This document shows, one piece after another, positions 12,466-31,990 of a stretch of 64,000 nucleotides of DNA. Within the stretch, counting starts at the first letter, position 1; each line of letters starts with the position of its first letter. The stretch is from Verrucomicrobiales bacterium (GTDB taxonomy: Bacteria; Verrucomicrobiota; Verrucomicrobiia; Verrucomicrobiales; DEV007), in NCBI GenBank assembly GCA_016795505.1, contig JAEUHH010000058.1:1-64000 (forward strand), given 5' to 3'. The translations under genes and the position numbers were made by a program. The notes beneath the pieces were generated by a model. The model saw only the letters and a list, made by a program, of their open reading frames with translations, was not told the DNA's origin and ran no database searches.

Positions 12466-12535
12466 CCGATGAAAGAGGGTCTGATCGGCGATGGAACAGG
12501 GTCTGATCGGTGATCTAACCCTGTTGCATCGGAAT
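12466..12535. repeat. Short ACAGGGT repeat, locus A (three units)
   Basis: Three successive units of about 22 bp: CCGATGAAAGAGGGTCTGAT, then CGATGGAACAGGGTCTGATC, then an inverted unit TGATCTAACCCTGTTGCATC. The core is ACAGGGT or its complement ACCCTGT, and the ends are CCGAT/ATCGG. Lies between the reverse transcriptase stop and the galU start. Confidence 0.75.
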
Positions 12536-12543
12536 CCGGGCGC

Positions 12544-13896
12544 TCAGAGAAGGCCGCCGGAGGTGGGCGGGCTCCCCATTTCGTGAAAGCCGGATCCCTC
12601 GCGGACCCGGTCATAGCGCTGCCGCAGTTTGGCGCCCTTTTCCGGATTCAATTGTGCAAGCGCCGAGATCCGCCCCAGCAGGCGCTCGGGGAAAAGAGCA
12701 TCGTCCTCCGGCAGGCCGCGCGTCTCCCAGCGGTGCAGGGCGGCTTTCAGCGCATCGTAGGTCTCGCGCACGGTGTTGGTCTTTTCATTGACGACCACTC
12801 CCGCGATTCGCTGGCGTGCGCAGGCGGGCATGACGCGAATCTTGCGAAAGTTCACCTCGAAGCCCTCGTCCAGCACGATCGCCGTCGCCCGGTCGAGAAA
12901 GCGTGTGGCGCCGCGCCAGAGGTCCCGCCCGCCGCTGAAGGCGAGATCGTCCGCATACCGCGTGTATTGGGCGCCGGCTGCCGCCGCGAGGCCCGCCAGC
13001 CGCCGGTCGAGGCGAAAGGCCACCGCATTCGACAATGCCGGTGAGGTCGGCGCTCCCTGCGGCAGATGCGGCCGCAGCAGGCGATCTGCCAGGGCGCGTG
13101 GCAGCCCGGCGGATCTCACCACCGCGCGCGGCGCGGAGTGACAGCACAGGCCCGCGAGCAGCCGCGCCACTGGCGACGGATAGCCGGCTGTCTCGAACAG
13201 CGCCGCCACCCGGCCAAATCGGATCGACGGAAAGAAGTCCGCGAGATCGAGCCGCAGCACGCAATCCGTCGCCGTGTGTGGATGGGCAAAGGAGCGGATC
13301 GAGCGGCCGCGCCGGAAACCGTGGGCTGCTTCGTGGAGCGGCAGATGGTCCAGCAGATCGCGCAGGATCTTTCGCTGGAGGCTCTTGAGCAGTGGTTTTG
13401 GCGAAGCCAGCAGGCGCGGAGGCGCCCCATGGCGGCGGGGGATCCACCGATGGACATAGTGGGCGAGTTTTCCGGCCGGATCGTGGTCGCCCCGCTCGGT
13501 TTGCGCGAGCCAATGCAACTCGGCGGGCCGCAATCCGCCGAGCCACAGGCACAGATCGCCTTCTGTGGCGAGGATCGGCAACCCCTCCCACCGGGGAGTC
13601 ATTTCGCGGACGCGGGTCTGGTGCCGCCAGTGTCGCGCCGAGCGCGCGCCGTGGGCCTGAAACCATGGATCGGCGGCGATGATTTTCGCCAGATCTGCCT
13701 CCGGCATGGTGGCGATCTCTTTGATGCCGGACAAGCGACGGAGGAGTGGTTTCCGGTCGCTGATGGAGCCCGGCAGGCCGCTTTCGAGGGCGGCTTCCAG
13801 TGATTGCGCCTCCGGGAGCAGGCGGAGTTGCAGCCAGCCTGCCAATTGCTCCGCCGCCGCGGCGATCATGCATTCAGGCAGCGGCTCCGGGGGCAT
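12544..13896 (-). CDS. Retron-like reverse transcriptase
   Basis: 450 residues. RT blocks in order: APPRLLASPKPLLKSLQRKIL (about 158-178), HGFRRGRSI (192-200) with FAHPH close behind (203-207), LDLADFFPSI with metal-binding Asp217 (216-225), PQGAPTSPALSN (279-290), YADD (314-317), VNFRKIRVM and RQRIAGVVVN (361-370). The C-terminus LLGRISALAQLNPEKGAKLR (406-425) resembles retron-type RTs. Where retrons usually have VTG this protein has IAG. There is no maturase (X) or HNH domain, which argues against a group II intron. Residues 1-105 form an N-terminal extension of unknown role. The ATG at 13896 is used; one at 13869 is possible. A structured region lies directly upstream on the same strand. 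Confidence 0.85.
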   Translation of the reverse strand: MPPEPLPECMIAAAAEQLAGWLQLRLLPEAQSLEAALESGLPGSISDRKPLLRRLSGIKEIATMPEADLAKIIAADPWFQAHGARSARHWRHQTRVREMTPRWEGLPILATEGDLCLWLGGLRPAELHWLAQTERGDHDPAGKLAHYVHRWIPRRHGAPPRLLASPKPLLKSLQRKILRDLLDHLPLHEAAHGFRRGRSIRSFAHPHTATDCVLRLDLADFFPSIRFGRVAALFETAGYPSPVARLLAGLCCHSAPRAVVRSAGLPRALADRLLRPHLPQGAPTSPALSNAVAFRLDRRLAGLAAAAGAQYTRYADDLAFSGGRDLWRGATRFLDRATAIVLDEGFEVNFRKIRVMPACARQRIAGVVVNEKTNTVRETYDALKAALHRWETRGLPEDDALFPERLLGRISALAQLNPEKGAKLRQRYDRVREGSGFHEMGSPPTSGGLL

Positions 13897-14104
13897 GGTG
13901 CATCGGGAAAAAGTCAGAGAGCCGCCGCCCCAACGTGTCCCTGTCCGGCGCGGCCGGGCGGGCGGCAGGCCTGTCGCCCTTTGGGCCGCGCGCGGCGGTG
14001 GGTCGGAGTGTCGTATCCCCGGGGATGCCCCGGAAAGGTGACGCCGCCTGCGCTCCCTGACGGGTTCGCAGACGGAGATTCACCAGCTTGGAGCGGCGGC
14101 TCAT
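13874..14104 (-). CDS. Possible small basic protein upstream of the RT (doubtful)
   Basis: An open frame of 76 codons begins with MSRRSKLVNLRLRTRQG and ends DTLGRRLSDFFPMHHAPG, overlapping the RT start by 23 bases. It is Arg/Pro-rich and lacks a recognised domain. It covers the same bases as the candidate structured RNA, so the two readings compete: it may be an accessory protein, or a chance frame in GC-rich DNA. Confidence 0.2.
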   Translation of the reverse strand: MSRRSKLVNLRLRTRQGAQAASPFRGIPGDTTLRPTAARGPKGDRPAARPAAPDRDTLGRRLSDFFPMHHAPGAAA

Positions 14105-17444: not shown

Positions 17445-18818
17445 ATGCATATCCAATCCCAATCCTGGCTCATCGACCGTCGCCACGCCCTCCGGGCCCT
17501 GGGCAGTTTCATCTCGCTGCCCATGCTGGAATGCATGGTGCCCCTGCGGGCTTCCGAAAAGGTCACGGCTTCGCCGAAGCGCAGCGCCTTCATCTACCTC
17601 GCGAACGGGGTTCATTCGTTGAATTACCAGATCCTCAAGCCGGGCCGGGACTATGAGTTCTCCCGTTCGCTCAAGCCGCTGGAGAAACACCGCGAGGTCA
17701 TCACGCCGATCAGCGGGCTGCATCACCCGGGGGCGCTGGGGCATCATCACAACTGCATCTCGGTCTGGCTGACCGGCGGAAAGCTCGGGCCCTCCGACCG
17801 CAACACGATCTCCGTGGACCAGAAGATGGCCGAAGTCACCGCGCCGCACACCCGGTATCCATCGATGGAAGTCGCACTCACCCAGGGATCGCTCGCCTGG
17901 ACGGCGGATGGCGTGCAGTTGCCGGCGCTGCGGCGTTGCAGCGAGATCTTCGCGTCTCTGTTCGAGGAGCCGAAAGGCGGAAAGGAGGCCCAGCGTCGCG
18001 CCCTGCGTCGCAAGGGCAGCGTGCTCGATGCCAATCTCGCCGAAGTGCGCCGACTCGAGGAAAAAATGGGCGTGGAAGACAAGGGGCGCCTCGAACAATA
18101 CCTCACCTCCGTGCGCGAGGCGGAAATCCGCACCACCCGGGCCGATGCCTGGCTCGACACGCCGCTGCCGGTCATCTCCGACAGCGATCGATCCCGCACC
18201 GCCCGCGATGTGCCGCAGACCCAGGCGGGTGAGTATTTCCGCACCGTCTATGACCTCATGGTGCTGGCTTTCCAGACCGATGTGACGCGCGTGGCCACCT
18301 TCAGCCTCGGCGGCGAGGGCGACGCCTTCTCCATTCCCGAGATCGGCATCACGGAGTCGCGTCACCAGCTCAGCCATCACGGCGGCGATGCCGGCTACAT
18401 GGAAAAGCTGACGAACTACGATACCTTCGCCATCGAGCAGTTCAGCTACTTCCTCACCCGCCTCTCCGAGACGAAGGATCTCAACGGCAGCCCGCTCCTG
18501 GGGACGACGATGGCCCTTTTCGGCAGCGGCATGTGCTACGGCCACAGCCACGGCAATGCGAATCTCCCGCTCGTCCTCGCCGGCGGTTCCGAACTCGGCC
18601 TGAAGCATGGCAGCCACCTCGACTTCAACCAGGAGGCCAAAGGATTCGGAGGCTACACGCTCGCCCCGGATGGTGCGCTCACCACCGAGCATTACCAGCT
18701 CTGCAGCCGCCCCGCGAACACCGATGCCCACATGAGCAATCTGCTCCTCCTCATGGCCCAGCGCATGGGTGTGGAGACGGAGCAGTTTGGCGATAGCAAC
18801 AAGGTCGTCGCCCTATGA
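17445..18818 (+). CDS. DUF1552 domain protein, Tat-exported
   Basis: 457 residues. The leader [18 protein letters not shown] fits a twin-arginine signal. The family body follows: [55 protein letters not shown] and [34 protein letters not shown]1552 proteins accompany DUF1592-type cytochromes in Planctomycetes and Verrucomicrobia; the fold is related to sulfatase/alkaline-phosphatase-like DUF1501 proteins, and the activity is unknown. Its stop codon overlaps the start of the next gene (ATGA), indicating translational coupling to the paralogue pair downstream. Confidence 0.87.
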
Positions 18819-20143
18819 AACTGCGGGTCCTGGGTTCCGGGTTCCGGGTTCGCGTCCCGATGCTGATTTTGGTTGGTTGGTGCGTCTTCAATGCCGCCGC
18901 TGCTGACAACGAGTCAGGAAAGAAGGGCAAAGAATCGAAAGCCGAACCCTTCCGCCCCGTCCCGGGCGCGTTCCCACCGTTTGAGCAGGCGCATGCCTAC
19001 CGCGGCGAACTCGTCTTCGTCGATCATGCCAATCGTCGCGGCAGCATCCGGGTGGCGGGAACGGGAAAATTCTATCGCAACGACCCGCATCCCTTCGCGA
19101 TGCTCCCGTATGGCATGGTGCGGCAACACGGCGCGCCGGCGGACCTGCGGGATGTCCCGCTCGGCACCGTGATGCACGTCCGGGCCTTCCTCCCGCCGGA
19201 TCCGAAGACCTCCGCCGTTCCCGTATTGCCCGTAGACAGCAAGGCAAAGGACGCCGGCCACTATCGCGGCACGGGCATCTTTCCCGCCGAGAACCACGTG
19301 TTGCTGCTGGAAGACGAGCCCAGCCACTGCCTGCGCGAAGGACTCGTCTGGAAACTGAAGCAAGTGGACATCAACGGCGGCGCCGGGGTGATCACGGCCA
19401 CCTGCGAACCGAAGCAGGGAGTCGGCGATGCCAAAACGACCGCGGAAGATCTCACCTTCGATGCAGGCACCCGCATCTGGCGTGGCCGCGAACGCCTCGA
19501 AGTCGCGAACGTGATCGCCGAGGGCTTGTGGCCCGAGACTGGGAAGAAAGATCTCGGCGGGCAGCCCGTCCTGCTCGGCATCACGTGGAAGCCCGCCCCG
19601 GGGGACGGGCTGAGCGGCGCCTTTACCCGCTTTCACATCTCGGACATCTGGCTGGACGATGCCGCCATCGAGCAAGCGTCCCGCTTTCAGACCGAGGCGC
19701 ACAAAGTCTTCATCCGCAGCCGCTGGATGCCGGCGCGGGTGGACGCCGTCGAGTATGGGGCATACGGTCGTGCCACCGTCACCGCGACCCTCTTTGGGGG
19801 CTTGGATGCCTCCCTCTACGCCGACTTCCAAAAAGGCGCCCAGGCCCAGATGAATGGCTCCGAGAATACTCTGAAACATGCCGGCGGCCACTATGGCCCC
19901 GGCCACATCGCTTCCAATGGCAGGATCATCGACGTCACCCGTGCCACCGGCGAGATTCCCCTCGGCAGCAGCGGCATCCAGATCAAGTTCGAGACCGATC
20001 TCATCATCGAAGGCATCCGGCCGACGAGAATCGTCCGTGTCCGCCCGGAAAGCTGGCCCAAGATGCAGATCCCCCGTGAGGAATATGTCAATGACAGCCT
20101 CGACGAACGCTTCCCGACCCCGGCCATCTTCCCGAAATACTGA
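18815..20143 (+). CDS. Exported protein of unknown family, paralogue 1
   Basis: 442 residues. An N-terminal hydrophobic stretch ([18 protein letters not shown]) looks like a signal peptide. I do not recognise a named domain. Shared blocks with the next gene include [21 protein letters not shown], [53 protein letters not shown] and the C-terminal [10 protein letters not shown]. The start overlaps the stop of the DUF1552 gene by four bases, so it belongs to that operon and may work with the cytochrome/DUF1552 pair at the cell surface. Confidence 0.75.
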
Positions 20144-20150
20144 TCCATCT

Positions 20151-21497
20151 ATGAAACGTCTGTTTGTGTCCTGTTCGTCGCTGATTGCGTTGGTCTTCCG
20201 CCCGGTGGCTTTGCCACTTTGGCTGGTCGTCGTCTGTTCCATCGCCGTGCGGGCAGATGGTGCCAATGAAGGGCCAGAGACCAAGAAGCAGGACCCGGAA
20301 GCGGACGTGTTCCGTCCCGAGCCCGGCAAATTTCCGCCGCTGGAGAAAGCGCATGCCTACCGCGGCGAACTCGTCTTCGTGGATCACGCGACGCGACGCG
20401 GCAGCATTCGCGTCCAGGGATCGGGCATGTTCTTCCGCAACGACCCGCATCCGTTCGCCATGCTGCCCTACGGACTCGTGCGCTATCACGGCGCGCCGGC
20501 CGATCTGCGGGATGTTCCGCTCGGCACCGTGATGCACGTCCGCGCCTTCCTGCCGCCCGACCCGACCACCTCTTCCGTGCCGGTGCTGCCGATCGACAGC
20601 AAGACGAAGGATGCGAATCACAACCGGGGTGCCGGCATTGCTCCCGCCGAGAACCACGTCCTCCTCCTCGAGGACGAGCCCAGTCATTGCCGCCGCGAGG
20701 GCAAGGTTTGGAAACTCAAGGAAATCGACATCAAGGCCCGGGCGGGCATGATCATCGCCCGCTGCGAGCCGAAGCAGGGCGGCGATGGAAAAGCGGCCGA
20801 GGAAACGATGACCTTCGACGCCGCCACCCGGATCTGGCGCGGACGCGAGTGGCTGAAGGTCGACGACCTCATCGCCGAGGGGGCGTGGCCTGCTGAGGGC
20901 AAGAAGGCGCTGGGGGATCAGGCCGTCCTGCTCGGCATCACGTGGAAACCGACGCCGGACGGCGTTTTCACGCGGTTCCATATCTCCGACATCTGGCTTG
21001 ATGATGCTGCGATGGAGCATGCCGCCGCCCAACAGACGGAGACGCACCGGGCCTTCATCCGCAGCCGCTGGATGCCCGCGATGATCGATGCCGTCGAGTA
21101 CGGGAAATTTGGCCGCGCCACCGTCACCGCGACCTTGTTCGGCGGGATGGACGAGTCGCTCTACGCCGATTTTGCCAAAGACGCCACAGCGATGATGAAT
21201 GCGGTCGCCGATACGCTGAAGCACACCCACGGAGCGTATGGTCCCGGCCACATGGCTTCGCGCGGGACCATTCTCGAAGTGACCAAGACGCCCGGCGAAC
21301 CGCCGCTCGGCAGCAGCGGCATCCAGATCCGCTTCGAGACGGATCTCATCATCGAAGGCATCCGCCCCGGCCGGACCGTCCGTGTCCGCCCCGGTGCCTG
21401 GCCGGCCGTGCAGGTGCCGCGCGAGGAGTATCTCAACGACAGCTCCTCGGGCATGGAAGAGCGTTTCCCGACGCCTGCTATCTTCCCGAAATACTGA
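20151..21497 (+). CDS. Exported protein of unknown family, paralogue 2
   Basis: 448 residues from the ATG at 20151, seven bases after the first paralogue stops. It has its own signal peptide (LPLWLVVVCSIAVRADG). It is clearly homologous to the preceding gene over nearly its whole length, with the same block order and the same ending [10 protein letters not shown], so this is a tandem duplication that has diverged. His, Asp and Asn residues in [13 protein letters not shown] and [10 protein letters not shown] are kept in both copies and may matter for function. Role unknown. Confidence 0.75.
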   Translation: MKRLFVSCSSLIALVFRPVALPLWLVVVCSIAVRADGANEGPETKKQDPEADVFRPEPGKFPPLEKAHAYRGELVFVDHATRRGSIRVQGSGMFFRNDPHPFAMLPYGLVRYHGAPADLRDVPLGTVMHVRAFLPPDPTTSSVPVLPIDSKTKDANHNRGAGIAPAENHVLLLEDEPSHCRREGKVWKLKEIDIKARAGMIIARCEPKQGGDGKAAEETMTFDAATRIWRGREWLKVDDLIAEGAWPAEGKKALGDQAVLLGITWKPTPDGVFTRFHISDIWLDDAAMEHAAAQQTETHRAFIRSRWMPAMIDAVEYGKFGRATVTATLFGGMDESLYADFAKDATAMMNAVADTLKHTHGAYGPGHMASRGTILEVTKTPGEPPLGSSGIQIRFETDLIIEGIRPGRTVRVRPGAWPAVQVPREEYLNDSSSGMEERFPTPAIFPKY

Positions 21498-21514: not shown

Positions 21515-21565
21515 TTCCGATCAGACCCTGTTGCATCGGCGATCAGACCCTGTTGCATTGAAATC
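21515..21565. repeat. Short ACAGGGT repeat, locus B (two direct units)
   Basis: TTCCGATCAGACCCTGTTGC is followed at once by a second unit, GCGATCAGACCCTGTTGCAT. Both units are in the same orientation. Lies just downstream of the second paralogue and before the efflux-pump genes. Confidence 0.75.
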
Positions 21566-31939: not shown

Positions 31940-31990
31940 TTTCCGATGAGACAGGGTCTGATCGCCGATCAAACAGGGTCTGATCGGAAA
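31940..31990. repeat. Short ACAGGGT repeat, locus D (two direct units)
   Basis: TTTCCGATGAGACAGGGTCT, then GCCGATCAAACAGGGTCTGA and TCGGAAA. It sits between the convergent AraC-type gene and the lipoprotein gene and ends 4 bases before the lipoprotein stop codon. Confidence 0.75.

Follow-up and report, generated by a model that had tools for sequence, protein, structure and literature searches.

Does a reverse transcriptase (RT) that departs from the usual retron motifs and lies beside no recognisable effector gene belong to a working retron, and if so, what could that retron do? The locus that raises this question lies on the minus strand of the window, the whole 64,000-nucleotide stretch of a Verrucomicrobiales contig (JAEUHH010000058.1) that was analysed; its features are collected in Table 1. 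The RT is a single open frame that contains all four retron-type blocks named in a first-pass annotation of the sequence (HGFRRGRSI, LDLADFFPSI, YADD and LNPEKGAKLR), and IAG does occupy the usual position of VTG, as that annotation had pointed out. From the motif set usual in validated retrons, the window RT lacks both NAXXH (region X) and VTG (region Y). These departures are shared by its relatives: in 19 of 19 aligned members of the clade described below, the N of NAXXH is replaced by F or Y ([FY][AVL]xxH) and the V of VTG by L, I or A. Region Y, which is marked by VTG, has been tied to msr recognition in the literature, and the change of both motifs in every clade member counts against a working retron. 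The changes are compatible with a retron, because a survey of retron-lineage RTs, which did not seek msr-msd RNAs, found VTG in only 47% and NAXXH in only 59% of them (PMC4244168). Since the altered motifs leave a retron possible, the RNA was the missing test.

Table 1. Features of the retron locus, in window coordinates
Feature	Position	Strand	Basis
Retron-type RT, 450 aa (coordinates with stop codon)	12544..13896	-	PADLOC scores, PDB sequence matches, tree
N-terminal 5-helix domain of RT, ~residues 1-95	13612..13896	-	AlphaFold2 mean pLDDT 83, pTM 0.74; weakly conserved in the clade
Region X motif FAHPH, residues 203-207, replacing NAXXH	13276..13290	-	
YADD, catalytic, residues 314-317	12946..12957	-	
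Region Y motif IAG, residues 364-366, replacing VTG	12799..12807	-	
ncRNA (msr-msd-like), 184 nt	13919..14102	-	Covariation; R1 match 13921-14100, 90.4 bits
a1 arm of closing stem, GAGCCGCCGCTCCAA	14088..14102	-	
Candidate priming (branch) guanosine, in AAGC right after a1	14087..14087	-	AG in clade RNAs; published retron site
Hairpin 1, variable, msr	14037..14084	-	Helix 2: both-side changes in 4/4 pairs
Hairpin 2, nearly invariant 8-bp stem and 3-nt loop; probably the hairpin recognised by the RT	14017..14035	-	Helix 3
Hairpin 3, long; probable reverse-transcribed msd hairpin	13948..13991	-	Helices 4 and 5
a2 arm of closing stem, TTGGGGCGGCGGCTC	13919..13933	-	

The window RT belongs to the retron lineage. 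Among PADLOC models it scores highest on RT_other (417 bits) and RT_outgroup (395), followed by RT_XIII (315); its best NCBIfam matches are retron families, with scores below their cut-offs; and its 14 matches by sequence in the PDB are without exception retron RTs. In its AlphaFold2 model (mean pLDDT 88.7, with four plasmid rows left out of the input) the RT is closest in fold to Ec86 (Z 26.1) and Eco2 (Z 24.8); the scores for group II and DRT enzymes are lower, about 14 to 18. A tree of 56 RTs was built with group II introns as the root. There the 19 window-like RTs fall inside the retrons as a single clade (support 100), whose sisters are type XIII and a small group of related RTs (support 91); RT phylogeny, which the first-pass annotation had named as a check, therefore places the window RT within retrons and away from group II introns. 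A group II intron, DRT or DGR identity was considered and rejected: the NCBIfam group II and Drt2 models score 29 and 28 bits, far under their cut-offs, and the tree disagrees.

Clade members come mainly from the window's own order, where the RT or a near relative is found in 28 of 240 genomes; the others are from a Nevskia genome and from plasmid records of Burkholderia, Dietzia and Tsukamurella. The source genome (6.5 Mb, 120 contigs) holds one copy of the retron. The RT lineage is already known to databases and is filed as PADLOC 'outgroup' or 'other', without a typed effector. These families, RT_other/RT_outgroup (PDLC02949, PDLC03740), score best for the whole clade as well as for the window RT, and the PADLOC profile covers much of the N-terminal extension; they are RT models only.

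The RNA lies directly upstream of the RT on the same strand. The 13-bp inverted repeat that had been noticed there is present (GAGCCGCCGCTCC, 14090-14102, with GGGGCGGCGGCTC, 13919-13931), and an AA/TT extension lengthens it to the 15 bp of the a1 and a2 arms. This closing stem is far beyond chance, because relatives keep the pairing with different bases, for instance GGATTCTCCAA/TTGGAGAATCC in L001 and CACTGGAGCCAA/TTGGCTCCAGTG in L087. For the 184-nt RNA the folding energy is -116.6 kcal/mol, whereas dinucleotide-shuffled sequences average -87.5 (z = -6.5; 0 of 200 shuffles). From 5' to 3' its parts are a1, AG(C), hairpin 1, hairpin 2 with the core CGGGGNNNCCCCG, a linker, hairpin 3 and a2. 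Every clade RNA that was read has AG where a1 ends. Published retrons have their priming G within a1 or immediately after it, in the context TAGC, CAGC, GAGC or CAGA (PMC6868368); the guanosine at the inner end of a1 in the window is thus a candidate for the priming site. With a1/a2 repeats, msr hairpins and an msd hairpin beside the RT, the predicted anatomy is that of a retron msr-msd.

Covariation in orthologues, a check that the first-pass annotation had proposed, bears this structure out. Upstream regions of 20 clade loci, with the AG site and the a2 arm as guides for trimming, were aligned by sequence only, and the RNAalifold consensus contains 35 pairs, 26 of which have compensatory changes. 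Pairing reaches 90.7% of cells, against 72.3% when shuffled, the covariation score is 0.482 (0.162 in shuffles), and none of 500 shuffles matches any observed measure; when one arm is slid by 1 to 3 columns, pairing falls to 37-50%. The 20 regions were picked with knowledge of the closing repeats and of hairpin 2, in which 100% of cells are paired, and this favours those helices; hairpin 3 played no part in the choice, and alone it has both-side changes in 11 of its 12 pairs. An Rfam search returned no family, the sole sub-threshold match being to P35 (E 2.1) on the opposite strand. Nor was the RNA family found described in the literature searched, although a published prediction may exist (for example, in Mestre 2020 or in the retron census of Khan 2025). 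A sigma-70 promoter search for the retron locus found none. Next to a2 on its 3' side, ahead of the RT start, a terminator-like stem with a T run lies at 13913-13934 on the minus strand; it could mark the 3' end of the RNA, or be there by chance.

A covariance model of the clade RNA, R1, ties this RNA to the RT. It matches upstream of clade RTs at full length, including loci outside its building set such as L090 (99 bits) and L110 from Dietzia (31.8 bits). Searching whole genomes for the RNA only, we obtained 10 matches in 96 relatives, 5 in 338 genomes of the phylum and 6 in 236 genomes of the class, which together make 16 distinct RNA loci. Fourteen of the 16 lie directly upstream of a clade RT, intact or broken; the other two are L125, with only a weak remnant of an RT C-terminus, and L126, which has no RT. 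In two genomes (G715 and G651) the RNA was found before any RT was known there, and an RT, one intact and one broken, was then confirmed directly downstream. Viral carriers of the clade RNA were also considered and rejected, R1 having no match in any of 53 viral contigs that carry other retron-like RTs. Decayed copies were seen at seven loci (L081, L088, L090, L102, L226, L125 and L126), their RTs carrying stops, gaps or losses, and the RNA is often still recognisable where the RT has decayed.

On this evidence the locus is very probably a working retron that makes msDNA, because the RNA is conserved and tightly linked to the RT, and the RT is placed among retrons. A covarying msr-msd beside nearly all clade RTs argues for working retrons; along with the altered motifs, the decayed copies L081, L088, L090 and L226 and the two RNAs without an intact RT count against this reading. 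The locus would be transcribed leftward as one RNA, with the 184-nt msr-msd first, then 22 nt and then the RT message. By analogy with Eco1 biochemistry, the RT would bind hairpin 2 through its C-terminal region Y, and the a1/a2 stem would position the 2'-OH of G14087 as primer, as in established retron biochemistry. The RT would then copy from beside a2 back through hairpin 3 and stop before hairpin 2. The product would be a branched DNA, linked to RNA and no longer than about 80 nt. R1 can find more such retrons, the candidate priming site and the hairpins are now named as testable elements, and the locus supplies a new pair of RT and RNA for making DNA inside cells.

What the product is for is a separate question. 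The ORFs lying up to 5.5 kb from 26 clade loci include no common neighbour gene, and only the RT recurs, in keeping with the earlier remark that no recognised effector gene is adjacent. The few recurring neighbours reflect synteny of close relatives, frames antisense to the RT, or common unrelated families; in the window the retron sits among genes for a galU-like nucleotidyltransferase and a fumarase and genes of the DUF1592 and DUF1552 families, the last two hinting at the Planctomycetota/Verrucomicrobiota group. Because no neighbour gene is common to the 26 loci, the locus is a solitary retron of RT and RNA, and no linked effector gene or domain of the kinds described for the typed tripartite defence retrons (types I-XIII) was found. 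In congeners, the two genes that flank the retron are found on separate contigs, and therefore the position of the retron is not conserved. The DNA product would most likely serve phage defence, as in characterised retrons, here with no linked effector; because no effector was found, this role is drawn from family membership, and we consider it only somewhat favoured. The effector's job might fall to the 5-helix N-terminal domain of the RT or to a host protein encoded elsewhere. The locus also offers a natural setting in which to learn how a retron works with no linked toxin.

The N-terminal extension noticed in the first reading is real and common to the clade. It is predicted to be a small helical domain with no recognised enzyme fold, and a Pfam search of the extension returned no family and no effector domain. 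As a candidate fold, the best PDB match (Z 6.6) was to the helical part of OtDUB, which is uninformative for a helical bundle, and it was set aside. One rival explanation is that this domain is itself the effector, or the dock of one, restrained by the RT-msDNA complex and released on infection. It is present in all intact clade members and has changed more quickly than the RT core (identity to L072 is 45% in the N-terminal stretch and 65% overall), no other gene is linked, and RT-effector fusions are known among retrons (the Toprim, TIR and protease types in PADLOC). However, besides lacking an enzyme fold or Pfam family, the domain has no invariant polar residues, and the RTs of type XIII and of myxobacterial retrons likewise have N-terminal extensions with no assigned function. 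An effector role for the domain is accordingly a tentative proposal that we hold to be doubtful. We are equally hesitant about the broader proposal of a separate retron type of one protein and one RNA, in which a clade lacking NAXXH and VTG, with its own RNA family, would use the N-terminal helical domain in place of a separate toxin.

A second explanation accepts that msDNA is made and denies it any part in defence, the locus being a small, horizontally moving retroelement or one with a housekeeping role. The scattered distribution within the order fits this, as do neighbours that differ even between close relatives, the frequent decay and the lack of an effector. Patchy spread and decay are, however, equally typical of defence genes, and the RT and RNA have been kept together across several phyla; we judge a role outside defence unlikely, though worth keeping in mind.

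Comparison with known systems bears on a third explanation, in which the upstream structure is some other RNA, for instance a leader with a regulatory role or a template RNA of the DRT kind with another mode of priming. This could draw on the altered NAXXH and VTG and on the literature searched, in which we found no experiment on the clade. However, the RNA matches a retron msr-msd part by part, in its a1/a2 arms, the AG(C) after a1, the 8-bp hairpin with a 3-nt loop and the long 3' hairpin, and the RT is closer to retrons than to DRT enzymes; we regard this explanation as improbable. The working-retron reading, by comparison, finds several likenesses among characterised retrons. The best solved fold match is Eco1 (Ec86), whose region Y binds to a stem of 8 bp capped by a 3-base loop (PMC6868368), a geometry that hairpin 2 shares; Eco1 differs in having a linked effector and canonical NAXXH and VTG but no N-terminal domain. 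The myxobacterial Mx162, Mx65, Sa163 and Ne144 have, by published description, an extended RT N-terminus like that of the window RT and priming sites of the AGC type (CAGC, GAGC; PMC6868368), whereas the 162-nt DNA of Mx162 is about twice the length expected for the window retron. The sister clade, type XIII (PADLOC RT_XIII), also has a long N-terminal region, and several of its members carry long upstream inverted repeats of their own; repeats of 12-20 bp spanning about 215-230 nt were seen in related genomes, at the type XIII-like RTs L095, L096, L100 and L101. Unlike the window clade, type XIII RTs keep VTG and mostly NAXXH. The window RT is not a member of type XIII: RT_other scores above RT_XIII, the clades are separate, and R1 has no match at type XIII loci.

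The weakest explanation, that the 76-codon frame at 13874-14104, which the first-pass annotation had offered as a possible effector, is a real gene whose coding mimics RNA conservation, can practically be dismissed: the frame is open and an ATG just before a1 opens it in the window and in L072, but mismatches by codon position (15/20/13) have no third-position excess, against 108/98/236 in the RT, most relatives have no comparable frame, and RNA lengths vary regardless of frame.

Two further observations concern the surroundings of the retron. A dispersed repeat, AACAGGGTCTGATCG, occurs in the window at 12473-12509, 21518-21554 and 31950-31986, and a pair of copies sits in the gap that separates the RT gene's end from the galU-like gene. 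The repeat is often paired, 22 bp apart, and has 161 exact copies in the source genome and at most one copy in three congeners. In addition, two similar adjacent plus-strand genes (18815-20143 and 19878-21497) share a 21-residue protein stretch, belong to no Pfam family and are a tandem duplication.
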